The notes beneath the pieces were generated by a model that saw only the letters and a program-made list of their open reading frames with translations, was not told the origin of the DNA and searched no databases. The translations under genes and the position numbers were made by a program. A stretch of 64,000 nt of DNA, taken from Jaenimonas drosophilae. Lineage: Eukaryota > Euglenozoa > Kinetoplastea > Trypanosomatida > Trypanosomatidae. The stretch lies in contig JASAON010001661.1 of the NCBI GenBank assembly GCA_030849065.1, positions 186,001 to 250,000 on the forward strand, read 5' to 3'. Shown piece after piece: positions 13,244 through 64,000 of the stretch; within the stretch, counting starts at the first letter, position 1, and each line of letters opens with the position of its first letter.

Positions 13244-15256
13244 CTAATCCATGCGATCACTTGGCCGCTCACCCTTTCGCGGAGAAGGCACCAAGCTTGC
13301 AGTGCCAGAGTATGGATAGTTGGCGCTGCTCGTGCAGCTGAAGCCGTGTGGTGCGCGGTAGGCCTGTTGGCCTCCCGTGGTGGTGCCGCTTGCTCTGCAT
13401 GAACGGCCAAAACGTGGAGAGAGTGAGGTTGTTACGGAGAGGAGGTCCTCCTCCTCCTCCTCCTCGACGTACATGCGGCCCATAATGTGGGCATCACTGA
13501 GCCATGGATGGCTGCACACCGCAGCGAGTGTGGGGCGCTCATCCGGTGCGATCTTCATCATCAGCTGCAACAAATGAAGAAAATCTGCCGAAAAACATTC
13601 TGCCATGTACCGTGTAATGCACACGCGCTCAGATGTCTGTGCGCGCTTTGGCAGGCAGCCGGAGCTCAGGACGTAGAGCAACACACCGAGCGACCACACA
13701 TCCATGGAGCTTGTAAAGTGGCGCGCGGCGGGTGTACGGCCATCATCATTCTCACTCTTGCCTCCTTGTGCTTGAGCAGGTGGAGGTGGCGCCAACATCT
13801 CGGGAGCGGCGTAGGCTGGTGTGCCAGCCGCCGCCACTCCACTATCATCGCCACCCATGCCAGGGAGCTCACCGCGGTATTTGGAGATGCCAAAATCTGT
13901 GAGTTTTAAGCGAATCTGCGATGGCCGCAACGTGGCTGGATCCACGAGAAGCGGTGGCGGGCCATCCATCTCGGAGGTCTTGCGGCCTTCCTCCTCCTCC
14001 TCCTCCCCCTTCTCTGGAGATGCCGCCACTGCCGCAGATCCGGCGGCATCTTCGCCATTGTTGGCCCACATCGCCATGGATGTCGTTGAGACGGCGGCGG
14101 TTGGGGGAGGTGGAGGTGTGGCACTCGGTGCGGCGCTCACCACCTCCCGCTCGCTCCCCCCGCTGGAGCGGCTCCAGCCACCACCAACATCAGAGCCAAC
14201 ACCACCGCCACCACCACTGCCACCACTCCGCCTGCACGCATCTTCTTCATCACTCCGTGTGGCACCATCGAGCACCTCAATAAGAATGTTCTCGGGCTTC
14301 AGGTCGCAATGCACAATCTTGCGATGATGGATATACAACACCGCCTCCAGCAACTGCACGAAGAGCTCTCGCACCTCCACCTCCGTGAAGGGCCGCGGCC
14401 CACGCGCGATGATGTAGTCAAAGAGATCGCCCCCACCGACGTACTCCATCACAAGCGCAAGTCCGTCTGGTGCCTCGAAGGTATCGAGCACGCGCACGAT
14501 GTTGGGGTGGCGCAATCCGCGCATCATCTCCGCCTCGGAGCGCAACGACGCCACCGCCACCTCGGAGAAGAAGCGGCGCTTCTCGAGGAGCTTCACCGCC
14601 ACAGGCTCACCGGTGGAGGTGTTGGTGCCATACCGCACCACAGCGAAGCTGCCATGGCCAATGATGGGGCCGAGCTGATAGCGGCTGTTAGGGTGGCCGG
14701 CGAGGAGCTCCGACTTCCAGTGCGAGTGGCGTGCCTGTGCGAGGAGGAGGTCCTCGGGGAGCTCGAGGATGTAGGTGTAGTGCGGTGCCTCGGGGAGGAG
14801 CGGATTCAGAAAGCTCACCATATCCCCATGTTGCAGCGCGGCATGACGGCCACGGCCAACACGTCGGCCATTCACAAAGGTGCCGTTGGAGCTCTTATCG
14901 TGCACCCATACACCATCTTCGCCCACGACGGAGATGGCGCAGTGAAGGCGGCTGATGCCGGCGGAGTCCAGCACCACCTCGCTCAGCGCCGCATCTCTGC
15001 CAAGTTTCAGGCCCAGGACGCTAAATCGAAGCTCCTCACGCCCAACCATTGGTGCCACACCACGAAGTGTATAGCGGGGGCGATGAGTAAGAGTGAGGGA
15101 ATCCTCCACCGTGAGGGAGGCTGGATCATCGCAGAAACGTTGGCTGAGTCGCGAGCTCGAGCACTCACGAACGAGCGGGTCGGCCTCCTCTCGTGGGCGT
15201 TTGCTGCCCAAAGAGGTGGTGTGTGCGGCACACGTGGGGTCCACGTGCATCTCCAT
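13244..15256 (-). CDS. FHA-domain Ser/Thr protein kinase (Rad53/CHK2 class)
   Basis: 670 residues from the ATG at 15256 (the preceding codon is GTG). The FHA domain spans about 75-155, with the phosphopeptide-binding motifs LGRD (85-88), SRLH (102-105) and NGTFVNG (124-130). The kinase domain spans about 193-600: glycine loop GHGSFAVV (200-207), VAVK lysine 222, Glu 242, HCDLKPEN (316-323), DFG (454-456) and APE. The catalytic loop reads HCD instead of HRD, so it is a non-RD kinase, and a low-complexity insert of about 115 residues (Gly, Ser, Glu) splits the catalytic loop from DFG. FHA followed by a kinase is the checkpoint-kinase layout of CHK2 and Rad53, with one FHA as in CHK2. The substrates are unknown; a DNA-damage role is inferred from the layout only. 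Confidence 0.9.
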   Translation of the reverse strand: MEMHVDPTCAAHTTSLGSKRPREEADPLVRECSSSRLSQRFCDDPASLTVEDSLTLTHRPRYTLRGVAPMVGREELRFSVLGLKLGRDAALSEVVLDSAGISRLHCAISVVGEDGVWVHDKSSNGTFVNGRRVGRGRHAALQHGDMVSFLNPLLPEAPHYTYILELPEDLLLAQARHSHWKSELLAGHPNSRYQLGPIIGHGSFAVVRYGTNTSTGEPVAVKLLEKRRFFSEVAVASLRSEAEMMRGLRHPNIVRVLDTFEAPDGLALVMEYVGGGDLFDYIIARGPRPFTEVEVRELFVQLLEAVLYIHHRKIVHCDLKPENILIEVLDGATRSDEEDACRRSGGSGGGGGVGSDVGGGWSRSSGGSEREVVSAAPSATPPPPPTAAVSTTSMAMWANNGEDAAGSAAVAASPEKGEEEEEEGRKTSEMDGPPPLLVDPATLRPSQIRLKLTDFGISKYRGELPGMGGDDSGVAAAGTPAYAAPEMLAPPPPAQAQGGKSENDDGRTPAARHFTSSMDVWSLGVLLYVLSSGCLPKRAQTSERVCITRYMAECFSADFLHLLQLMMKIAPDERPTLAAVCSHPWLSDAHIMGRMYVEEEEEEDLLSVTTSLSPRFGRSCRASGTTTGGQQAYRAPHGFSCTSSANYPYSGTASLVPSPRKGERPSDRMD

Positions 15257-15939
15257 CACTCAGATCTCTATCTATGCTTAATCTTCTCAGTGTAGGAGCG
15301 TCTGTGTATGTACGTGTGTGCGGAGAGATGATGAATGGTTGTTGCTGAATCTACGGGCACCAATGATGGAAGAGTGCCACACTAACGTGCTTGGCGTACG
15401 TCTGATGGCTGCAGATGTATGAAAAATCTTGTTGTATGAAAAGAAAGCAGTGAGAGTGTGGTGGATGATGAGGGATGTTGCTCTCCTCATTCAGCACAAC
15501 CACCAACTTTGTTCTCCCGCTGTATGTGCGTGCGTCCATGTGAAACACACATGCATCAACGATGCAAAAAAAAGAACCCCAACGGAGAAGTGAAGAGAGG
15601 AAGATTGCATCATGTGGCATCATGCGCATCATCATCATGTAGTAGAAGGACGTACACGTGGATGAAAAATGAGGTGGCACCAGTGTTGTGCGTGAGGCTC
15701 AGCCCTCGTCAAACAACAGCAATGTGGGATGTGCCGCCACCGACACAAGCGGGTGAAGGCGGTAGGAGGGCCACCCACTGCCCGCAGCTCCAGCGGAATA
15801 GGAAGAGAAGAAGAATGCGTCACTGGAGGTTGCGATAGGGAGTGAGCAGGCAAGAAGAAGATCAGTAGAGGTATGCTAGTTTGGCATGAAGTATGTGCTG
15901 ATGCCGGTGTTGTATGTGCGTGCGTGTGTGTGTTGGCGC
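15257..15939. other. Spacer, no gene recognised
   Basis: About 680 bases with short TG runs and purine-rich plus-strand stretches (pyrimidine tracts for the minus strand). No convincing coding region on either strand and no tRNA-like fold noticed. Confidence 0.65.
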
Positions 15940-40963: not shown

Positions 40964-42427
40964 CTATGGGCTTGGCTCTGGTGCAACCACCTTGTCCCAG
41001 TTGAGCCCATTGCCCGTCGATGGCAGCGTAAGCAGGCAGCCAACGGGGTAGCTTCCCTTCTCTGAGTGATTCCCGCCAAGGGGGCATGTGGCGGCCCCTG
41101 GGCAGGGGATGCACTCGGGCTCTGTGTTGGCCCAGCGCCCCTCACACCGCTCACACAGGTACCGGCTGCCAAAGCACATGTGGGTGGCTGGATTGCAGCA
41201 GTAGCGGCACTTGTACACTACCCACTCCCGCTGATGGTCTGGGCAGCTGAAGTCGTTGCGGCACTTCTCGCAGAGGAGGTCTGAGGGGGCCTTGGCAGGC
41301 TCACCACCCATCATGCGTGGGCAGACCTTATCCCCGCCAAAATAGGGAGCTTCACAGCGGTGGCAGAGGTAAAAGAGGAGGTCGTCCTCGGTTTTGGATG
41401 GGTTGGCGAGCCTCTCCAGAACCTCCATCTTTGCCGCGCGGACCGTCGCGTGGAGCTTCCCAACCGGCACCGACTCCTCCACCTGCGGGTGGCGAACCAG
41501 CCGCCGGCACCCAGCGGGACACACTGCATGGGTGAAGACGATGTGCTCTGCCTTGGCCTTAAAGTCCAACCATTTTTGCACCCACATACGCACGCAATCG
41601 GCATGCAGCTGGTGACCGCAGTCCAGCACCAGTCCGTCCCCCCCGTCAAACTCACAGAGGCATAGCGCGCAGGTTGGCTCCTCCTCATCCTCCGCCGCCT
41701 CTTCAGACGGAATGGGGCACACGCAGAGCGCGGAGGTGGTGTTGGTGATGGGGAGAGACTGCGTCACTACTCCCGACTTGGTGAGCACGTGCACGGTGGC
41801 GCCAGACACCGCGGCGATGGTGCCATCATCATCCACCCCCACAAAGGCGTTCGCTGTGGATGGAAGGGCCGCAAGAGACGGAAGCGCTGTCAGGGCAGCG
41901 GTCTCCGACGCCGCCGAGATGGTGCCATCCGGCAGACGAACAAGAGCAGCGCTGCGGTGGTAGCCAACCAACGTGGCCGGGGATGCAGCCGCCACGAAGG
42001 AGGAGAGGCCGTGGTTGAAGTGGTACCCCCACACACGACCCTCCGCCGTGGTGAAGACGAAGCCGTGGTCGGCAGGTTCGAAGTTCGCCATGGGCGTGCT
42101 GAGGTCAATCACCTCCGTCATGGCACAGAGTGGGTCATAGATGAGGAGGTGGCATCCATCTCGTCCCAGGCCGTAGAGCTTGTGGCGGTAGCTGACAAGC
42201 TTCACACAGGGCATCGGCAGCTCCGTCACCGACGTTTTTGTGGAGCCACAGCACAGCTTCAGACTTTGTGGGGCTGCCGTGGTGAGGTAGTACACACCAG
42301 CACGACCTCCGTGAGAGGCAGATTGAATGGCCTCGCCCAGTATGGGCCCTTCCGAGACGCGGACTCCGCTGGCTGCACTGTAGTGCACCGTGTACACCGC
42401 TCCATCTGACGTTACTACGCATGCCAT
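40964..42427 (-). CDS. Compact RING plus tandem-cysteine E3 ligase, MYCBP2/PHR RCR-like
   Basis: 487 residues from the ATG at 42427. Residues 1-235 form a propeller of short beta repeats (about six blades). The C-terminal half has a RING: C253, C256, C270, H272, H275, C278, then C303 and C307 (CPAGC, one residue longer than usual). Behind it lies a second Cys/His array, residues about 355-464, with C355, C358, C369, C386, C389, C395, H398, C407, C410, C411, C418, C425, C428, C439, C442, C448 and C464. Its key blocks CHRCEAPYFGG and YKCRYCCNPATHMCFG closely resemble the tandem-cysteine domain of MYCBP2 (PHR family), which relays ubiquitin between two cysteines to Thr/Ser. The MYCBP2 proteins are over 3,700 residues; this one keeps only a propeller and the catalytic module. 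E3 activity is inferred. Confidence 0.82.
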   Translation of the reverse strand: MACVVTSDGAVYTVHYSAASGVRVSEGPILGEAIQSASHGGRAGVYYLTTAAPQSLKLCCGSTKTSVTELPMPCVKLVSYRHKLYGLGRDGCHLLIYDPLCAMTEVIDLSTPMANFEPADHGFVFTTAEGRVWGYHFNHGLSSFVAAASPATLVGYHRSAALVRLPDGTISAASETAALTALPSLAALPSTANAFVGVDDDGTIAAVSGATVHVLTKSGVVTQSLPITNTTSALCVCPIPSEEAAEDEEEPTCALCLCEFDGGDGLVLDCGHQLHADCVRMWVQKWLDFKAKAEHIVFTHAVCPAGCRRLVRHPQVEESVPVGKLHATVRAAKMEVLERLANPSKTEDDLLFYLCHRCEAPYFGGDKVCPRMMGGEPAKAPSDLLCEKCRNDFSCPDHQREWVVYKCRYCCNPATHMCFGSRYLCERCEGRWANTEPECIPCPGAATCPLGGNHSEKGSYPVGCLLTLPSTGNGLNWDKVVAPEPSP

Positions 42428-52915: not shown

Positions 52916-55900
52916 ATGGAGCAGTCGGACGCTGAAAATGTGTACGGGTGGCAACGTGAAGATGCAGCGGATTCAGAATACAGTTCCGACAGCTCCGATG
53001 ACCTTGATATCAACAATGCTGGGCATCAGCAGGCAAATAGACAAGCGGATCACTCTTATGTGCGGGAACCCACAAATCCACAGTTCTACAAATTCGCAGC
53101 TTCTACAGACATTCGTGCTCGCCAGAAGACTGGAGTCTGGCGAGCAGAATCTGAAGGAGTCGAGAAACAACATCTCAGAGATTTTGTGAAGTACAGTCGA
53201 TATGACCTTCTCACCATATCGTGGCACCTTGCCTCAATTGACTACAAGACGCGAACCCACGCGCCATTTTTCCCCCTCCCAGTGATGCCAGAGGTTCTGC
53301 AAGGGCTCTCCGTTGATGCCGGTGATGTTGCAAAATTTATGTGTCTATCATCCAATGAACTTTACAGAAGGCACGAAAAACTGTCGCCTGAAACTCTGCG
53401 CTCACTACCGGTTCGAGCTGCTGCAGACATTAGTGCCGCATGTCGCTCTCAGATCTCCGAAGCGCCAAAAGTGTTTGATGATAGCTCCTTGAACCCAAAA
53501 TGGGAAGCTGATGTTAGCAGCGATGACGACTCAGAGGATGAAGGAGACGGTGACGTGAAAGAGCTAGATTTCTGCATAGCAATGACTTCCATGACGTCTT
53601 CACAGTGCATCGAGATTCGTAGTATCAAACTCCTCAACGGCCTCGTGAACAGGTGCATCAAGAGCTCACGCTTTTTCACTTTGCATTGTTGGGGAATCAG
53701 CCGCATCACTCAGTCGTTACTCAGAATTATTGGAAAAGAGATGCAAAAGCCATCGCCCGACGAAAAGCTTGTTGCAATGTCACTGACTTTGGCATACAAG
53801 CTTTCTGTAGGTTCCTGCAACATGAACGCGGTTTTGGCCCTTCTACGATGGAGTTTCCATAATCGCTCATGTGCGGAACGAATACTTCTTCCAGATGCAG
53901 GAGCCTTGTTCGACATGTTGAACTCACTGAATTCAAGCAGAGTGAAGTTACTTATACCAAAGGGAGCTTCGAGGGGTCAAGTGATCTCGGTAGTGCACTC
54001 TCTTAACTCTAGTAACCAAGTGAGGGGGTTGTGTGCTGTTCAGGAGAAGAAATGCAGCTACTGTGTGATGCTGACAGACAGTGGCGTCATGAAGATTGAG
54101 CTGAGACCTCCGTTTTCTGTAGTACTGGAGAACTCACACTACACGAAAGATGTGTGCTGTGGAATGTTCGTCGAAGGTTCCAATATTGCGGTCATTGGAG
54201 AGAGTGGAGTGGACTTTCTCAGTATCGACACCCTAGAGGTTGTCCGTTTTACACAGTCTCCCGTCACCCCTGACAATGTCTTTTCCCTGTATGTGGGGGA
54301 AAATACCTTCAAGACACCCTATTTCTCGTGTGGAAGGTCAGGCAAAAAGCACCCGTACTTCAATGGAAACACTGTCTCTGGAACTGTCGAGTGCACCGCT
54401 CCGCTTCTAATTACCCGAGGGAGTGACTCACTGAGTGTTCAGTTCTTCATTCTTCCTGAGTATTCATTTTCATCTTCAGAATTGACTCTCCTGGCCCTTA
54501 AAGAGGGGGATAGGAATTGGCTTACTGTCACAATTGTGGGAGGTATTTCTGGCACCATAAAGGTGGTGTTCAAGCATGGATTCGATTGCGTTGCTGAAAT
54601 TGACGAAACGGTAGACTCTGGGTGGCTCCTCATTAGCGCCACAATGTCTTCCGTAAATGACACTGCGACGTGGACCACATACTGTAACGGGGTTCAGTGT
54701 TCTGCTCGTGGTCAGAGTGGGTCGTTGGTGAAACCATCTGGGGGGCTCACACTTACGTTACTGTCAGGGACGTTCCGAGGATTCATTTCCTCTTTACAAG
54801 TGTGGGACAAGGCGCAGCACATTGGGGATATGCGGCTTGTGGCAAGTGGTGGTGAGTCTTCCTCGTGGTGCTCTTTCCAGATGAACGAGGAAGCTGGGAT
54901 TTCACTTCACTGTCGCCAATGCGGAGCCATGTGGAGAGGAAACTCACTTTTGTGGAAAAGCTCACCAAAGGAACTCCCCGCAAGGAGTAGCGTCTCTGTT
55001 ATTCCGTGGAAGCCGCGAGGAGCATACTATATTCTCACCAACCAGTTTGAGATTGCTGTAATAGAAAATGATGTGACAACATGGATTGCCCTCGATGGAT
55101 CCGTAGTTGATCAGCAGGAGTCCTTTTTCCGGGCAAGTGACCTATGCTTCTACTGTCCGTACAACGCCAACCTTTTGATGATGTGTCATGAAAGTCTGTG
55201 CATTCGTTATGTCATAACAGGTGGCCCTGCCACATCACTTATCAGAGATCTTCCCACTGTGATTAGCGCTGAGGTGGTGACTCAGAGTAGCGTAGACGGT
55301 GTATCGGCAGTGGATGTTGCTCTGTTTGTAACACGTCATCTGAACTCTTTAGTGTTGTTTGGTGATCACGGGAATTCTGAGAGGTCACTTGATGTGCTCT
55401 CGAGAGTTCGGACTGTGTCACTGAAAACAATAGGCCGACTACTCAGTGTTTGCCAGGAAATTGTGGATGGCTGTGGCGATAGATCAGTTCACAGTCTGGA
55501 CGTGCTAATCCTGTGCTTCACTGGTCGGCTCCTTATCCGGCAGGTTAAACTGATGGAACGCAGGTGCCCCAGCAAAGTTGTTCCGCAGGTGGATGCTGTC
55601 CTTCGCTTCATTCAGGAAGCTAAGGAGACAAATGGGGGTGTTCTGGACGAGGCAGAGAGCATCTTTTCAGAACTCCACAAGGTAGTTCTTGCAGAGTCAG
55701 TCAGTCACGACTACCAGATGAATCTAATTGTTGCATCAGCAGATTTTGCGGAAGTCGAGCAACTTCTCACACAGGAGAACCTTCCCGCGCTCGTGTCAGC
55801 GGTTATCAGAAAGGATATGAAAAAGTCATTTATGTCGTATCTTCATCGACTGAGAGACGCGTGCGGAACAGAAGCAACGGAGCTTCTGAGTGGCAAGCCC

Positions 55901-58900
55901 CACTCCTTTGATGCATCGAATGTTATGCTAACAACACTCACTGGTATGCTCCAGAACTGCCGGTCGTATTGGGCACTTGTTGCGGTGGCACTCCTCAACT
56001 CAATTAGTGAGAATATTCTACGTATCTTCGAGCACCATCTTCTCGGTTCAGATGATCGAGCTTCAAGCCTCCAACTTCTGAAGCAAACAGCTATTGGTGT
56101 TGTGGTGTATCCTCTTGCACATTACTTCTTGGACATGGTGTTGGATCAGTCCGTTGCCGCAGATGTTCTCAAGCTTCTGCATGGAATGTTTAAGGTATTC
56201 TCTCTATGGACTGCTAGCCCCCAAGTGGGAGGAAAACCCTCAACGCAGCATTCTCTGGTCGAGACCTACTCTCTCGTAACATCTCCTCAGTCGCACTCAG
56301 CTCATGCAGCGTCCATTGATCTCAAGCACGCAAAGGGTATCAGGGTGGATGTTTCATTTTGTGAGCCTCCTGTGGGAGAAGTTCTTCTTGTCGCTTCATT
56401 GATTTGTGGCGACCTTCGCAGACTCTCCAAGAAGGTTGAGTGTGGTCAGACGGTATCTTTTGACTGTGGAGGAGAGCTGACAATTTCTTCAACCAATGGT
56501 AAGGGATATCCAAGTCTTTCCATCGTGATTCACGCAGAGGTGGAGCTTGTCATCGAAACGGAACTGGATTGGCTTAGTGATATTTGTTGCTGTCTTCGCC
56601 GTGCCATCATTACCGGGGGATACGCATCACTCCTTAGCGCAGGTGAAGTGCAACCAGCGTCGAGCATTCGACGAGACTCGATACACCGTGCCGGTCTGAC
56701 GAATGCAGCGCTGTCCGACCAAAAATGTGATTCCTTGGTGGTTGACTATGGAGCTCTACCAACTGCACATTCACAACTCCTTGCCCTGGCGGAAGGGGAT
56801 GATACATGTACACTCACGACCACTTGGAAAGAGGTGTACCGGGGTAAGAACATTCCAAATAGAACTTCACTGGAATGTGTAGTCAAGTGGTGTGCATGTG
56901 CTATCGCCTGGCACTGCACAAAGCACCACGTCGCGACGGTGACTGATCTGAAAGAAGAGCTCAGTGTTGCGCTGGACCACATTAAGCGGCGTTTGTTCCT
57001 TCTCCTGGAAGCTCGACAACTCGGAAAGGAAGACGCGATCGTGGCCCGTGCGAGATACTTGCTTGTGAATATTCATTCACGCCAATTCATGGAAGCACAA
57101 CTTTCTGCCGCTAACCCCACCGAAGAGCCGGTGGATACACGCCAGCCATGGGCTACAACCCGGAGCGCAAATCATTCGTCACGGCGGGCCCATTTCAGTA
57201 GTGGGGCCTGGAGTAGAAGGCATGAATCCATGGATTTGTCTACGTCCGCCAATCGTCTCGGCTCGAGCTCGGCGTCGATGCGTTCTACTTTTCAGCGCAA
57301 TCAGTCAGCCATTACTGCTGTGAGCATGTTCAAGAAGGGCATCGAGACGGCAGATCCTCTGCCCAATCAGCTTACAACATTTCTCTTTACGTCTGAGGAT
57401 ACACCAGATGATCTCCAACTGGCGCTGCTTCAACGAACTCGACGCGCCGCGGATACTGTGGAAACGTTTCGGCTCCTTGCAGAGCTTGCGAAATCCTGTG
57501 TATCCGGCAAGCATGATGATCTCTCTCTCCTCCTGGACTCCTACCTGCAGTACCGCGTGGCCTTGGCTACCTCATCAGGATCTGCTGAGCAGGAAAAGGC
57601 GGCATTTAACTCGCACTACACCGATCACCTTGTCGGCTGCGGCCTCCTGCGAGAGTTGGAGCTGCAGCAGTCGGTTTGTGGCTTCGTCCAGGCAGCCCTG
57701 CGAGCGGTGCTACATCAGCTCCTCCACCCTCCGGAACTCCCACTAGTGGAATGTCTTCAGTTGTGCGCCGTTCTCTGCCATCCCTGGGATAGCGTAGACA
57801 TCTCACTTCTCCGTCCATCAGACATGTTTCTCTTTCTGCAACACTGCCTCTCCTCCGCCTTTGCCATGCGGATAGACAGGATGGAGAAGTCCGACCGCGA
57901 AGCGACCTACGTGGAGCGCAAGGGCCTCTTCGACCTGGCTCTTCGGTGTCTTGTAATGCCTAACTCTGTACTTCCAATATCCACAGAAAACGCACGAGTG
58001 GTGGATGGAGACGTACAAGGAATTCACGTGGAGCATGGTACAGTTGTCTGCGTCACACGCAACCAGTGGAAGCCACTCAATGGGTGGGAGCAGCTTCCCG
58101 CACCACTCCAAGATGGTGATGCCTACGCCAACTTCGGTCTTCCGTGCATCGTGTCGCAGCTACCAGACGTTCAGTACTTTGAAATCACCATTGACCTCGT
58201 CGTGCGTGATCCCTTGGATGCCGCCATTGGCATCAGCGAGCTTCCTCTCCCCACAACTGGACTGGGCGATGGAACCAACGCGATTTGGTTCGGCGCCGAT
58301 GGGCGGGCAAGGTTTCCAGGTGGGTCGGACGTCTGGCTGAGCGAGCCGTGGCAAGTGGAAGATGTTATTGGCTGCGGAGTGTTTGCGCCACACAATAGCG
58401 TCTTCTTCACGCGGAATGGGGTCTTTCTGGGTATCGTCACACGTTGCTCCTACGCCGTCCTCTCTCCCTTCATCAAGATCACCACGACCAAGTCGGTTGT
58501 GCGTGTGATTGTGAACTTTGGCCGGGAGCCCTTCAAGTTGGACCTGGCCACTCTCCACTGCTCGTGCCGGTACAAGTTCATGACGAGCTCCGTCGTCAGT
58601 GATGCGGTTGTTACCACAGTCTGTTATCTACTCTCCATGTGCCATCGCAACTTCATGTCCTCCGAGCCAATGGCCATTGTGCATCGTGATGCCATCAGCT
58701 CTCTATTGGAACACGCCGCCACGTTTCTCTCGAGCAGTATCCTCGAGCTGCTGAACATCCTCAACGTGAAGTTGGCCGATCCCGCTCACCCTCCGTCCGA
58801 TATCACGGAGGAAGCCGCGCTGGAGCAGCAGAGAGATGAGCAGGAAGTGAAGGTTTCACTGACAGTGATGCTCTCGCGACTCTTCCACTGCCTGCGAGTG

Positions 58901-61900
58901 GCCATTGAGTGTCTGCACTACGATGCCGTCACACCGGCCACTCACAGTGAAATGCTGCAGCTCTGCGCGTATGTGATGGTACACTCCCGTGAGGTGCACC
59001 TCAAGCTGCAAGCCGCTAAGTGTCTCATCTTGATGCGGGAGTTGATGTCACCGGAGAGTCTGCTTCGAGCAACGGAGAGGCTTGACCTCTTTGTCTCTGC
59101 CGAACGCGTGGTGGAGACGCTGGTCGAGCTCGCGCACATCAACATCTTTGCCGAGGACGAGTGCAAGGTGACCCTAGCTCGTTGGAGCGACGACACAACC
59201 ATTGTCCGGGGAAAAAACAGCTTCTTTGGAGCAACCCCCATGCCCTCCACTGGAACCCACACTGTGGGATTCCGCTTCAAGAGAGCCATGGTGCGGACAA
59301 GTGGCAAGGGCTCCAACCTGGGTGGGTGCTACTACGTTGGTCTGTGCAGTGGTCAGCCTCGCATCACCAACATGCAGAGCGTGCTCAGTCGGAATGATAT
59401 CTTTGTTCTGCAGGACTGTGATGACAAGGATCAGGTGGAGCATCTGGAACTCCGGCGCAATGCCATACCCTTGAACCTGCGTGGGCGTATCTACGGTCAT
59501 GACGAGGTGGTGTGGGTGGAGTACAATGCCGACCTTGGTGAAATCACCTTCTTCCGTGAAAACGTCTGCCTCGGTGTTGGCTTTCGAAATGTGTTGCTGG
59601 GAGAAGACTTGTACCCGATGGTGTTCAGCTTCAACGATGACGCAACGTGTGAAATCGTGGAGGCTCCTGGCAAAACGGAGGAGTCCCTTGTCAAGTGGAT
59701 CTCCAAGCTCCACCGAAGCACTGCGATTCATGCCTTGCAGCATCTCCATCTCGTGCCCTTCTTCGCCCCGATCATTCAACGCATGATCACGCGTTCCATC
59801 GCGGGACTGGAACAGCAGTTCACGGAGTGTCTAATTGGACTGGCGACGTTGGGTAGTGAACGAAGCTACATGTACTGCCAACACAGTGCCTACGGTCTTG
59901 TGGTGGTGGAGATGGTATCTGACGTTACGGGCCTTGCTGTCGTGTACATTGCGGATGATCCGAGCAAGCACTTCTTCACCATTGAGCCGAACAAGCTCAC
60001 CCCATACTTTGTCTGCCCACCCATCTACGCAGAAAGGGTACCAGTGGCCCACAGCTGCGCCAAGCTTCTCACCCACACGCTGCAGCACAGCCTTGTCGAT
60101 GCCTCCTTCTTCTCTCCGCTGACGTTGGAGGAAGAAGAACGACGTGCCGCCATCGAGGAGGAGTACCACAGCTCGCTCGATGAGTTAAGTACCTTGGATC
60201 TCCTCAGCCTCCTTCACGCCACGCATCAAGGGACACCACGTACACAAGACATGCCCTTGGCGAGTGATGACTTTGTGCGGGCACAGGCAAGCGTGGCCAA
60301 TTCCATTCTTCAACGAACCCCTGTGATTGTGGAGCCGAAGTACTCCACCAAGACCATCTTCTCGCCCCACCCCTCTATCGGGGTGGCCACAGCTCCTGGC
60401 CCAACCATCATCCGTGGAAATGCACTGGAGATGAGCGGTCGTGAGGAGCTCACCTTTGCTGTCTCCCTCCCTCGTACGGGCGATCATGGGGACCTTCTCT
60501 ATGTGGGCATCACCACCTCCACCTCCCGCTATCCAGACCAGCAACTCTCGGAAGTGGCGCACTGGGAAGACACCTGGGCCCTCTGCAGCAAGGACTCAAG
60601 CTCGACAAACAACACACATTGCTGTGTGGAGCCAACCATGATCTTCAATGGAGAGGAGACCCTCTTTTCAGCACAGGATGTACTGTTGCTACGTCTGCAC
60701 AGCGAGGGATCGTTGGAGTTCTCCCGGCTTCGCGGTGGTCGGCGGGAGGACTTTGGGGTGTTATTTGAGAATATACCGCTTCATCATGCGGTGATGGATT
60801 CCGACGAGGAGGAGGACGAAGAAGCGGTGGTCTTCCGGCCCTTCATTGCCTGCGGTGAGGGAACCTACGCGGTGTGGTCCTTCATGGATGCATTCATCTT
60901 CCCTGCACGCATGACGGTGTCACCGAGCAGTCTAGACAACCTTGTGGAGGGCTCTGTTCAGTGTGGTGTGTGCGGCTCCCCGTTGGGGACCTCCTGGTAC
61001 GTCAACCACCGCACTACCCTATGCAACAGCTGCTTCATCATGTGGCAGCAACCGTTGGAAACTTTCTGCCGGATGGATCCTCAGGATGCTTCCATGAGTC
61101 TTCGGTACCTCGTCTCACCGCACAAGCCAAAGGAGCTTCTCCTTGGCCACTATGTGGAGTTCGAGGAGTCCCCAATGCTTAGTTGGTCCCCCGAAAAGAG
61201 CGTCAACATGACTACGATGGGTGGCTGCTGCCTCGCCACTCGAGACGAGTGCATTGCGGTGACGGAGTCCTTCTCCTCCACGGGGCAGACTCGGGTGGAT
61301 CTGCTTCTGCACTATGTTGCTGGTGCTGCTGGCTTCCCCTTTGGAGGCCTCCTGCCTTTCAGTCCTCTCTGGCGCCAAGGGGGCAACACCACCTCTCACA
61401 TTGACTTGGCTGCAAATGACGTGCGCGTCAGCACCTCGGTCATCCCACCAGGGACGAAGGCCTTCTTCACGTTGCAGATACGTGAGGTGGCCGACACTAC
61501 CAGCGTCGGTGAGACCACGGAAATCCGCGATCTCTTCTTGGGTCTCACCAACAACACCAGCGTGTCAGCGGCGGCGGAACAGACCGTCGGAAGTGGCTGT
61601 CGCTCAACGGTGGAGCGGCTTCGGATGGAGGGCAGCTTGTGGGGGCTGTGGTGCGACAAGATCATCAGTCCCGATGGCCGCATTCTGGTGCTGATCGACA
61701 CCCTCCACGGACGACTCAGCTTGAGCTCGTCCATGGTTGGTCTGCGACATGCACCCACGGTCCTCACCTTCTCCGTCAATCCTGGCGAGCCCCTCCACAT
61801 TCTTCTCTCCTCTTCCGAAGCCTGCCGCCTCACCGCTTGGGAGGGCTTCATCTCAGGAGAGGAGCGCACGGTGCCGAGCTTCGTTCCCATCGCTGTTGGC

Positions 61901-64000
61901 CTACTTCCCGATGACTTTGACTCTTGGAGTGGAAACGCGCTCGAGGGGGCGGTCCTGCTGGCCGACACCGTCGCCCACACGAAGGCCATGAGCCCAACAC
62001 CGTGGGTCTTTGCCGAGGGGGTGACCCCGTCGCAGTCGCTCTTCCGCATGGGGGACCCCATCACCCTCATCCAGGATGGCGCCGAAGTGAGGTGCTACTG
62101 CCGCGGCCTCCCCATCGCCTCCACGACCCTCTCCCCCTGCCAAGTCGCTAGCCGCCATCGTGTTGTGGTGTCCCTCTCGGTGCAGGGTCTCTGTGCGACG
62201 GTGGTGCCGCCGCTGTGGGGGCGGGCTCGGGTCGGGCGCATCCAACGGGTGTGCAGCCCCGAGGTCTGCCTGGTGGAGTGCCCCTTGGAGGAGGAGGAGA
62301 AGAGGGAGAAGAAGATGGTCGCCAGAGGCCCCCGACTAATCCCTGTGCGGCGGCGCAATGTGCGCTACTGCGTCGTCGCCGCCACCTACGCCCCGTCCTT
62401 CCCTGAAGGCCTTCCCGTGGTATACAAGATTCGATGGATGCCACCCAAGCGTGGCGTACTGGCCTCAGTCCAGCCCCACTGCTTCGGCGTCCAAGACGTC
62501 CACTGTGTCGTCTCCGTCCAGCCCGAGTGCTGCTTCATCGCCGACAATGAAGACTGCACGGCGTCGGTGCAAGCTGAACGCCCGTCTGTGGTCCCACCAC
62601 GCGACACCGTCTCTCGAATCTTTGAGGTTGGCAAATTGCGCTACCGAATGCAGGGAAAGCGCTCATTCAACGGCATCATGTTCGATTGTCGGGCCAACAC
62701 CCCCATCACTCTGACTGGTCTCCTCATCATGAGCCAAACCGCAGGGCGGCACCGCGTGGATGTCTTCTACAAGAAGGATTCTCACATTGGCTTTGAGCAC
62801 AACGCCAACGCGTGGACTATCATCTACTCCGGGGACGTTGACATGAACCCCGACACCTTCTACCCAGTCATCTTCCCCCCCGTTGGAATAGAGGCCATGA
62901 GCTCCTTCGCCCTCTACCTCAACACCTCACACAACTGCGGGGTTGGCTTCTACGCCGACGAGGACAGCTGCACCGGTGCGGTGGGGACGGAGCTCGACAC
63001 CGATGGCGTCCTCACCGTCTACATGGGCAAACCCAGCAGCTCATCCAACGACTTCATGGACATATCCACCCCTGCTCGTGGGTTCCTTGGGACAATCCTG
63101 TACGAGCACCACAGCACAGCACCGGTTCCTGCACCATCGCCTTCCTCCGGGCCGGCGTTGACCGCCCCCATTCGAAGCTCTATGGGCGCATTGTCGTCGT
63201 CCTCGTCGTCCGGAAGACGTGGCAACACGGCATCTCTTCCCCTCCGTGGAGAACGCTTCATCCTCTCCAGTCGTCCCTTGCGTACTGCCACTGCCCCATC
63301 GATTAGCTTTGAGATGGAGGTCCTCCCCCCGTCCCTGCACCTCTCCGCGCTCTCGCTACCAATCCTTCTTCCTCCCACTACGGGTGGACCAGTCGGGGTG
63401 CAGCATGCCCTGCTCTCCGTGTCGCTTGCCTCAGGCAGCGTCAAGGGGGGTGCGGGGGGCAAGGGGAGCCCCGCATGGGTCTGGAGGTCTCGCGAGCTCC
63501 TCACCCACCCTACGACAGCAGTCCAGCTTCCCTTGGATTTGTGCCTTCGACAGGGTCGGTACATCCTCTCTGCCACCGTCCACCCCATCCGAAGCGAGGA
63601 TGAGGAGGGCACCGAACCCTCCTCACCCCAAGACATCCCACTCATGCTGCACGCGGTGGATGGAGTCAGCTTCTGCCGTCGCAACCACGTCGTGGCCGTC
63701 TACGGCTTTGTTGGGGATCTGCGTCTGGAGATGGAGGCACTGCCCGTGTCGAGTCTCTTGCGGACAATGACGACGGGGGCCACCCTCAACCAAGGCAACG
63801 CCGCGTCCTACAACGGCATCATGTTCGACCTCTGTAGCAAGGTGGAGCTCACCATTGAGCGGATGCTCTTTGTGTCGCAGACCTCAGCAGACATGGTCCT
63901 CGTCCGCCTCTATTGGAAAGAGGGAAGTATGCGAGGGGCGGAGAACTCGCCCACGGAGTGGCGCGAGGTTACCGCCTCCTACATCAATCTCGTGGACAGG
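52916..64000 (+). CDS. Giant multi-domain scaffold with LamG-like, SPRY-like and NGIMFD modules (3' truncated)
   Basis: From the ATG at 52916 the frame stays open for 3,695 codons to the window end. Residues 6-36 are acidic. About 475-645 is a LamG/concanavalin-like segment (STGTVEC-type start, then GRFRGFISSLQVWD-like end). From about 1,040 to 1,430 there are helical repeats. SPRY-like modules lie at about 1,730-1,880 (QYFEITIDLVV, DPLDAAIGISE, DVIGCGVF) and 2,080-2,255 (GGCYYVGLC, VWVEYNADLGEITFFRENVC); weaker ones follow at about 2,495-2,660 and 2,740-2,990. Cys pairs CGVC and CNSC (about 2,682-2,710) may bind zinc. Two copies of a beta-domain with NGIMFD (Asn 3252 and Asn 3633) follow. 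The start is the first ATG after the switch region. A ligase or membrane scaffold role is unproven; the real C-terminus, where a HECT domain would sit, is not visible. Confidence 0.8.
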   Translation, partial: MEQSDAENVYGWQREDAADSEYSSDSSDDLDINNAGHQQANRQADHSYVREPTNPQFYKFAASTDIRARQKTGVWRAESEGVEKQHLRDFVKYSRYDLLTISWHLASIDYKTRTHAPFFPLPVMPEVLQGLSVDAGDVAKFMCLSSNELYRRHEKLSPETLRSLPVRAAADISAACRSQISEAPKVFDDSSLNPKWEADVSSDDDSEDEGDGDVKELDFCIAMTSMTSSQCIEIRSIKLLNGLVNRCIKSSRFFTLHCWGISRITQSLLRIIGKEMQKPSPDEKLVAMSLTLAYKLSVGSCNMNAVLALLRWSFHNRSCAERILLPDAGALFDMLNSLNSSRVKLLIPKGASRGQVISVVHSLNSSNQVRGLCAVQEKKCSYCVMLTDSGVMKIELRPPFSVVLENSHYTKDVCCGMFVEGSNIAVIGESGVDFLSIDTLEVVRFTQSPVTPDNVFSLYVGENTFKTPYFSCGRSGKKHPYFNGNTVSGTVECTAPLLITRGSDSLSVQFFILPEYSFSSSELTLLALKEGDRNWLTVTIVGGISGTIKVVFKHGFDCVAEIDETVDSGWLLISATMSSVNDTATWTTYCNGVQCSARGQSGSLVKPSGGLTLTLLSGTFRGFISSLQVWDKAQHIGDMRLVASGGESSSWCSFQMNEEAGISLHCRQCGAMWRGNSLLWKSSPKELPARSSVSVIPWKPRGAYYILTNQFEIAVIENDVTTWIALDGSVVDQQESFFRASDLCFYCPYNANLLMMCHESLCIRYVITGGPATSLIRDLPTVISAEVVTQSSVDGVSAVDVALFVTRHLNSLVLFGDHGNSERSLDVLSRVRTVSLKTIGRLLSVCQEIVDGCGDRSVHSLDVLILCFTGRLLIRQVKLMERRCPSKVVPQVDAVLRFIQEAKETNGGVLDEAESIFSELHKVVLAESVSHDYQMNLIVASADFAEVEQLLTQENLPALVSAVIRKDMKKSFMSYLHRLRDACGTEATELLSGKPHSFDASNVMLTTLTGMLQNCRSYWALVAVALLNSISENILRIFEHHLLGSDDRASSLQLLKQTAIGVVVYPLAHYFLDMVLDQSVAADVLKLLHGMFKVFSLWTASPQVGGKPSTQHSLVETYSLVTSPQSHSAHAASIDLKHAKGIRVDVSFCEPPVGEVLLVASLICGDLRRLSKKVECGQTVSFDCGGELTISSTNGKGYPSLSIVIHAEVELVIETELDWLSDICCCLRRAIITGGYASLLSAGEVQPASSIRRDSIHRAGLTNAALSDQKCDSLVVDYGALPTAHSQLLALAEGDDTCTLTTTWKEVYRGKNIPNRTSLECVVKWCACAIAWHCTKHHVATVTDLKEELSVALDHIKRRLFLLLEARQLGKEDAIVARARYLLVNIHSRQFMEAQLSAANPTEEPVDTRQPWATTRSANHSSRRAHFSSGAWSRRHESMDLSTSANRLGSSSASMRSTFQRNQSAITAVSMFKKGIETADPLPNQLTTFLFTSEDTPDDLQLALLQRTRRAADTVETFRLLAELAKSCVSGKHDDLSLLLDSYLQYRVALATSSGSAEQEKAAFNSHYTDHLVGCGLLRELELQQSVCGFVQAALRAVLHQLLHPPELPLVECLQLCAVLCHPWDSVDISLLRPSDMFLFLQHCLSSAFAMRIDRMEKSDREATYVERKGLFDLALRCLVMPNSVLPISTENARVVDGDVQGIHVEHGTVVCVTRNQWKPLNGWEQLPAPLQDGDAYANFGLPCIVSQLPDVQYFEITIDLVVRDPLDAAIGISELPLPTTGLGDGTNAIWFGADGRARFPGGSDVWLSEPWQVEDVIGCGVFAPHNSVFFTRNGVFLGIVTRCSYAVLSPFIKITTTKSVVRVIVNFGREPFKLDLATLHCSCRYKFMTSSVVSDAVVTTVCYLLSMCHRNFMSSEPMAIVHRDAISSLLEHAATFLSSSILELLNILNVKLADPAHPPSDITEEAALEQQRDEQEVKVSLTVMLSRLFHCLRVAIECLHYDAVTPATHSEMLQLCAYVMVHSREVHLKLQAAKCLILMRELMSPESLLRATERLDLFVSAERVVETLVELAHINIFAEDECKVTLARWSDDTTIVRGKNSFFGATPMPSTGTHTVGFRFKRAMVRTSGKGSNLGGCYYVGLCSGQPRITNMQSVLSRNDIFVLQDCDDKDQVEHLELRRNAIPLNLRGRIYGHDEVVWVEYNADLGEITFFRENVCLGVGFRNVLLGEDLYPMVFSFNDDATCEIVEAPGKTEESLVKWISKLHRSTAIHALQHLHLVPFFAPIIQRMITRSIAGLEQQFTECLIGLATLGSERSYMYCQHSAYGLVVVEMVSDVTGLAVVYIADDPSKHFFTIEPNKLTPYFVCPPIYAERVPVAHSCAKLLTHTLQHSLVDASFFSPLTLEEEERRAAIEEEYHSSLDELSTLDLLSLLHATHQGTPRTQDMPLASDDFVRAQASVANSILQRTPVIVEPKYSTKTIFSPHPSIGVATAPGPTIIRGNALEMSGREELTFAVSLPRTGDHGDLLYVGITTSTSRYPDQQLSEVAHWEDTWALCSKDSSSTNNTHCCVEPTMIFNGEETLFSAQDVLLLRLHSEGSLEFSRLRGGRREDFGVLFENIPLHHAVMDSDEEEDEEAVVFRPFIACGEGTYAVWSFMDAFIFPARMTVSPSSLDNLVEGSVQCGVCGSPLGTSWYVNHRTTLCNSCFIMWQQPLETFCRMDPQDASMSLRYLVSPHKPKELLLGHYVEFEESPMLSWSPEKSVNMTTMGGCCLATRDECIAVTESFSSTGQTRVDLLLHYVAGAAGFPFGGLLPFSPLWRQGGNTTSHIDLAANDVRVSTSVIPPGTKAFFTLQIREVADTTSVGETTEIRDLFLGLTNNTSVSAAAEQTVGSGCRSTVERLRMEGSLWGLWCDKIISPDGRILVLIDTLHGRLSLSSSMVGLRHAPTVLTFSVNPGEPLHILLSSSEACRLTAWEGFISGEERTVPSFVPIAVGLLPDDFDSWSGNALEGAVLLADTVAHTKAMSPTPWVFAEGVTPSQSLFRMGDPITLIQDGAEVRCYCRGLPIASTTLSPCQVASRHRVVVSLSVQGLCATVVPPLWGRARVGRIQRVCSPEVCLVECPLEEEEKREKKMVARGPRLIPVRRRNVRYCVVAATYAPSFPEGLPVVYKIRWMPPKRGVLASVQPHCFGVQDVHCVVSVQPECCFIADNEDCTASVQAERPSVVPPRDTVSRIFEVGKLRYRMQGKRSFNGIMFDCRANTPITLTGLLIMSQTAGRHRVDVFYKKDSHIGFEHNANAWTIIYSGDVDMNPDTFYPVIFPPVGIEAMSSFALYLNTSHNCGVGFYADEDSCTGAVGTELDTDGVLTVYMGKPSSSSNDFMDISTPARGFLGTILYEHHSTAPVPAPSPSSGPALTAPIRSSMGALSSSSSSGRRGNTASLPLRGERFILSSRPLRTATAPSISFEMEVLPPSLHLSALSLPILLPPTTGGPVGVQHALLSVSLASGSVKGGAGGKGSPAWVWRSRELLTHPTTAVQLPLDLCLRQGRYILSATVHPIRSEDEEGTEPSSPQDIPLMLHAVDGVSFCRRNHVVAVYGFVGDLRLEMEALPVSSLLRTMTTGATLNQGNAASYNGIMFDLCSKVELTIERMLFVSQTSADMVLVRLYWKEGSMRGAENSPTEWREVTASYINLVDR

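Follow-up and report, generated by a model that had tools for sequence, protein, structure and literature searches.

The gene studied here raises the question whether a trypanosomatid encodes a compact version of the RING-Cys-relay (RCR) ubiquitin ligase MYCBP2, and whether such a protein would still use the chemistry of that enzyme. It lies in a stretch of 64,000 nucleotides from Jaenimonas drosophilae (contig JASAON010001661.1), referred to below as the window. In a preliminary description the product was read as an ancient, minimal relay ligase fused to a beta-propeller. According to the available text of PMC9527308, MYCBP2 is the first ligase described as an RCR enzyme and passes ubiquitin along two relay cysteines, with a Cys-His-Glu triad. 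The accessible parts of two further papers describe its mediator loop, His base and three Phe residues (PMC6769291) and the role of His4583 (PMC7615817).

Gene, domains and genomic surroundings

The reading frame starts with ATG and contains no internal stops (Table 1). A search of the organism's own genome returned one full-length match and one weak match restricted to the RING (44%, query residues 246-284, E 6.3e-4). With 487 residues, in which Pfam finds three RING models, each below its gathering score, and a sub-threshold DUF7289 only, the protein is not a giant multi-domain scaffold of the PHR (PAM/Highwire/RPM-1) type.

Table 1. Positions of the gene, its domains and its relay residues in the window
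Feature	Position	Strand	Basis
Whole gene, propeller-RING-TC, 487 aa	40964..42427	(-)	Intact ORF; single full-length match in own genome
Predicted beta-propeller, residues 1-240	41708..42427	(-)	Model m2cc1e208d99e and structural matches
RING with C-x3-C third pair (C303-C307), residues 251-310	41498..41677	(-)	zf-RING_2, MYCBP2 RING alignment, spacing table
Tandem-cysteine (TC) domain, residues 350-470	41018..41380	(-)	MYCBP2 TC matches, shuffle control, fold model
Mediator-loop equivalent, residues 366-385	41273..41332	(-)	Clade-invariant R371 and P377; model confidence dip
First relay cysteine C369 (= MYCBP2 C4520), codon	41321..41323	(-)	Alignment and numbering; Cys in 21/21 of the clade
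Second relay cysteine C418 (= MYCBP2 C4572), codon TGC	41174..41176	(-)	Alignment; Ser in 19/21 of the clade
E429, codon GAG, in place of general base H4583	41141..41143	(-)	Alignment; His in 0/21 of the clade

In the model of the full protein (m2cc1e208d99e), strands are predicted throughout residues 1-240, with block pLDDT values of 72-94. Most of the top structural matches of the protein are propeller-containing proteins, several of them known propellers. The fusion to a beta-propeller proposed earlier is supported as a prediction by these strands and matches. The RING is matched by zf-RING_2 with an E-value of 1.9e-5; its 25.3 bits lie below the gathering score of that model, 27.3. Its third pair had been noted as one residue wider than usual, and this is confirmed (C303-PAG-C307). 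A regular expression finds the C-x3-C spacing in all 21 members of the clade to which the protein belongs. In alignment A6, which has 46 rows (17 from the clade and 29 from outside), the pair is separated by three residues in 17/17 clade rows and by two in 29/29 outside rows. The wide pair is, in these data, a mark of the clade. H295 is found in 21/21 clade members and 2/29 outside rows. At residue 258 of the RING (window 41654-41656, minus strand), an extra, near-invariant Cys adjoins a RING cysteine; it is present in 20/21 clade members and 2/29 outside rows.

Among the 18 other minus-strand ORFs scanned, 12 have Pfam matches (PARP_regulatory, Enkurin, DUF3592, ANTH, BCDHK_Adom3, WD40 in two, ankyrin, AAA, HEAT, DEAD, and kinase with FHA) and six have none, while the seven plus-strand ORFs scanned gave no match. 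The kinase, at 13244-15259 on the minus strand, carries its FHA domain at the N-terminus. No candidate partner for a RING-TC ligase is suggested by the matched neighbour domains, and no tRNA or Rfam matches were obtained within the window. Kinetoplastid genes typically lie in one-strand arrays with a divergent switch between them. On the plus strand, an open frame spans 52916-64000 and continues past the end of the window, with a length of 3695 aa or more. Since its strand is opposite to that of the ORFs with Pfam matches located below 52.2 kb, a divergent strand switch is suggested at approximately 52.2-52.9 kb.

Homology to the RING-TC module of MYCBP2

The best PDB sequence matches of the whole protein are MYCBP2 RING-TC structures, 5o6c (2.5e-16) and 6t7f (5.3e-16), with a bias of about 21 bits in this search of Cys-rich sequences. 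By itself, the TC part retrieves 6t7f at 1.1e-13 and 5o6c at 1.3e-13, and a family profile of 19 rows reaches 5o6c at 7.9e-30. Because both the RING and the TC sequences are rich in Cys, a control was made in which the MYCBP2 TC domain was shuffled 1000 times with each Cys and His held in place. The TC domain of the window protein scores 53.4 bits against the authentic domain, compared to a best of 33.1 and a mean of 2.1 bits for the shuffles; for a 21-row profile, the corresponding values are 71.8, 23.1 and 0.6 bits. The Cys/His pattern accounts for some of the score, but not for the full score against the MYCBP2 domain. Chance or composition as the source of the match is ruled out by this control.

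In the initial model of the full protein, the TC domain had low confidence, with pLDDT values below 50 at residues 369-375 and 400-440. The RING-TC part was therefore folded anew with 46 rows. The new model is confident except for two dips, one of which covers residues 366-375 and goes down to 77, and its fold matches that of the MYCBP2 RING-TC module. The two blocks from which the preliminary description had drawn its comparison are both present, CHRCEAPYFGG beginning at C355 and YKCRYCCNPATHMCFG ending at G420. The closeness to the TC domain that it saw in them is borne out by the PDB matches and the shuffle control, and the profile match and predicted fold, which it had named as checks, agree. 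Judged from its sequence, the window protein is homologous to the catalytic RING-TC module of MYCBP2, with the two domains, RING and then TC, arranged as in an RCR ligase of the MYCBP2 type.

Relay residues and the kinetoplastid clade

The MYCBP2 fragment was numbered with the motif GGEARC ending at C4520, which places C4572 in FFCFG and H4583 in HFCNACH. The offset agrees with the ranges of the fold match, in which 4387 lies opposite residue 250 and 4631 opposite C464 of the window protein. We take C4572, E4534, F4573, F4578 and F4586 to be the numbers of the respective MYCBP2 sites. On this numbering C4520 aligns with C369 and C4572 with C418, so that both relay cysteines claimed for the window protein are in place. 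The His base is absent: H4583 falls opposite Glu429. The triad Glu site, E4534, is opposite D383, and the residues of the Phe pocket, F4573, F4578 and F4586, are opposite F419, L424 and W432. The loop that runs from C369 up to the following Cys has a length of 16 residues in the window protein and in MYCBP2, and of 14 to 18 in the other rows listed.

Full-length orthologues were found in Leishmania, Porcisia, Leptomonas, Lotmaria, Novymonas, Phytomonas and two Trypanosoma species. Together with the window protein the clade counts 21 proteins, the kinetoplastid identity of some rows being taken from the tree. The relay residues were tallied over 145 fetched proteins and the window protein, i.e. 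21 within the clade and 125 outside. Within the clade, the first Cys is present in 21/21, the second only in the window protein and P0028, with Ser in the other 19, and the His in none. Outside, the second Cys and the His are both present in 125/125 and the first Cys in 121/125 by regular expression, or in 124/125 on reading (present in P0074, P0102 and P0119, absent from P0099); these counts are not independent events, because many rows are closely related diatom-type proteins. Given the losses within the clade and the retention in the outside relatives examined, the clade looks derived by loss, and it looks like a variant that has lost the esterification machinery rather than an ancestral minimal relay. 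The idea of an ancient, minimal version of a working relay is not supported by these tallies. The preliminary description would have given up its reading if either a TC match or an aligned pair of non-zinc cysteines were lacking; the window protein has the TC match and an aligned residue for each relay cysteine, whereas 19 of the 21 clade members lack the second cysteine.

Other positions separate the clade from its relatives as well. R371 and P377, in the loop around C369, occur in 21/21 clade members and 0/29 outside rows, and W432 in 21/21 and 2/29. At position 423, which corresponds to the His before F4578 (H4577), His is found in 29/29 outside rows and in none of the clade, where all 21 members have Tyr or Phe. 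The following residues are kept in 46/46 rows of A6: C355, C358, C386, C389, C407, C410, C411, C425, C428, C442 and C448, as well as C369, G364-G365 and K406. No new invariant cysteine replacing C418 was found in A6 for the clade; C258 and C395 are near-invariant (16/17 each). Residue 467 (window 41027-41029, minus strand), the last Cys of the TC domain in 29/29 outside rows, is Thr in the window protein and Arg in two other members of the 21. Position 464 is Trp in 1/21 clade members.

Next, a RING-TC tree of 35 rows (the 21 clade members, 13 of the 125 outside proteins and MYCBP2) was considered. The clade forms one side of a branch with support of 100/99. When the tree is rooted outside the clade, P0028 is sister to the other 20 members (97/99). 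As this sister protein has Cys at 418 and Asp at the His site, loss of the Cys probably came after that of the His. In the full-length tree the window protein is joined to the Ser-bearing P0018 (80/93, with a long branch), and its C418 codon is one step from the Ser codon AGC. An AU test does not reject a tree in which all 19 Ser rows are placed together (p 0.238). Retention of C418 is therefore possible as well as reversion.

A possible retention is one of the points in favour of a working relay, in which ubiquitin would pass from the E2 to C369, on to C418 and finally to the hydroxyl of a Thr or Ser, the base being Glu429 or some other residue. The window protein has both cysteines, as does P0028, the sister of the other clade members, and D383, F419 and the aromatic W432 align with E4534, F4573 and F4586. 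Glu429, or Asp in the case of P0028, could conceivably serve as base. However, no clade member has the His, 19 have Ser for the second Cys, and the H4577 site is Tyr or Phe throughout; moreover, hydroxyl-directed enzymes are described with a catalytic His in the available part of PMC7615817. We therefore regard a working relay as distinctly unlikely, and Thr/Ser esterification cannot be inferred from the window protein.

The Ser residues themselves invite another explanation. In the Ser-type orthologues, Ser418 might accept ubiquitin from C369 and carry it as an oxyester, which could be a slow intermediate or a self-modification; the Cys of the window protein would then be a reversion or a relic. 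Position 418 shows no third residue type besides Ser and Cys, and the adjoining F419 is Phe in 17/17 clade rows of A6. A His base to activate the Ser is absent, though, and since Ser is one base change from Cys, its frequency may simply reflect inheritance from a single ancestor. An oxyester on Ser418 thus appears very improbable.

A plain RING E3, transferring ubiquitin directly from the E2 to the substrate and keeping the TC domain as a structural or binding relic, would account for the dismantled second site, for the erosion of the last Cys pair and for the Pfam result, which gives RING models only, bar the sub-threshold DUF7289. With T467 in the window protein, this erosion could point to a decaying domain, and the conservation of C369 might have a structural cause; both points speak against a Cys-dependent ligase. 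Nevertheless, C369 is invariant in the clade and lies opposite the cysteine whose C4520S mutant is termed catalytically inactive (PMC12664034, available part), and the clade-specific R371 and P377 adjoin it. The plain RING reading is for us an unlikely one.

The invariance of C369 and of R371 and P377 in its loop, together with the losses at 418, 423 and 429, suggests that the first site is under selection and that the second has been released from it. We slightly favour, at little better than even, a Cys-dependent E3 that would be charged at C369 and would not form MYCBP2-type Thr/Ser esters, with an amine as the probable acceptor. In such an enzyme, a charged E2 would be recruited by the RING and hand its ubiquitin to C369 in the mediator loop, a charging that we infer from the conservation of this residue. 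As the His base is lost throughout and the Cys in most members, ubiquitin would then probably reach the acceptor without the MYCBP2-type Cys-to-Cys-to-Thr step; most likely this acceptor would be an amine such as lysine. C418 of the window protein could still take part, without the His, and the predicted beta-propeller would probably bind the substrate. A sharper formulation, a kinetoplastid 'RING-Cys without relay' with C369 as the single catalytic Cys, an esterification site without His and usually without Cys, and an acceptor other than a hydroxyl, is put forward tentatively, as somewhat less than an even chance.

Relatives, literature and comparison with known systems

In the wider survey by profile search (best 120 of 185 matches listed), RING-TC modules with an intact second Cys and His were found in several protist lineages. 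The module therefore exists outside animals, as had been claimed, in compact proteins of diatoms, ciliates and other protists, and an animal-only module is ruled out by them. These compact proteins are also in line with the suggestion that the relay module may predate the PHR scaffolds, or with a separate origin, in an unrooted module history. In P0019, P0021, P0023 and many of P0032-P0145, a RING-TC with the second Cys and His is fused to an F-box associated (FBA) domain, PF04300, which is matched at 8e-16 in P0019, a relative of the diatom RING-TC-FBA proteins. Some FBA domains bind glycans, and RING-TC-FBA proteins possibly combine a hydroxyl-directed ligase with a possible sugar binder. 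Another set (P0020, P0022, P0024, P0025, P0029, P0030, P0031 and P0034) has a C-terminal RING-TC behind a long zinc-rich N-terminal half, which looks RBR-like by eye and, weakly, by Pfam in P0024. In P0024 a sub-threshold IBR is matched by Pfam, and in P0029 a ZZ; P0020, P0022, P0025 and P0034 show no IBR. The RING-TC proteins P0046 and P0053, one from an MMETSP set and the other from a set labelled as the red alga Purpureofilum, are very similar, so that one may be a contamination and the red alga record is unsure. Among GTDB genome contigs, 45 stretches fit a pattern and none is a relative.

No second RCR ligase is named in the literature covered, which was available in part. By title and opening of the abstract, none of the matches listed, from mostly open-access literature, deals with a RING-TC or RCR ligase outside animals. 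Nevertheless, such proteins are not wholly unseen, as the diatom protein P0137 is named 'protein ligase MYCBP2' and P0024 'highwire' by their sources. The E3 inventory of L. mexicana, based on InterPro and Pfam searches, reports HECT, RBR, RING, RING-CH and U-box genes, with 57 RING genes, and the terms 'RCR' and 'RING-Cys' are absent from its main text, as far as this is available (PMC7647121). A compendium of human E3s places MYCBP2 among the atypical enzymes (PMC13061254, available part). If the favoured reading is true, trypanosomatid genomes hold a Cys-dependent E3 that cannot be distinguished from plain RINGs by RING-domain searches. A series of natural variants that retains the first site but loses, at the second, the His and later in most cases the Cys also offers a direct test of which relay elements decide between ester and amide chemistry.

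Compared to RBR ligases such as RNF216 (8eb0), the window protein shares the RING-like start, with a weak Foldseek match (6.9e-3) over model residues 5-94; in the fold search, the alignments with RBR proteins fall on the RING of the modelled protein. Beyond the RING, the protein matches MYCBP2, and an IBR is missing from its Pfam list at E-values up to 10, with the search filters in force. The proteins with a zinc-rich N-terminus, including P0034 of Stentor, resemble it in their C-terminal RING-TC, but have another N-terminal half and retain the second Cys and His. Likewise, the diatom RING-TC-FBA proteins (such as P0032 of Skeletonema, P0039 of Cyclotella and P0137 of Seminavis) are compact RING-TC proteins outside animals, in which the second Cys and His are kept and a C-terminal FBA domain is found, whereas the window protein has an N-terminal propeller. 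With the MYCBP2/PHR module it shares the domain order RING-TC, the predicted fold, the Cys pattern, the first relay Cys, the loop length and, in the window protein itself, the second relay Cys. It differs in having Glu429 in place of the His base, Ser at the second Cys in 19/21 clade members, a C-x3-C third pair in the RING, and a propeller protein of 487 aa instead of a giant PHR scaffold.
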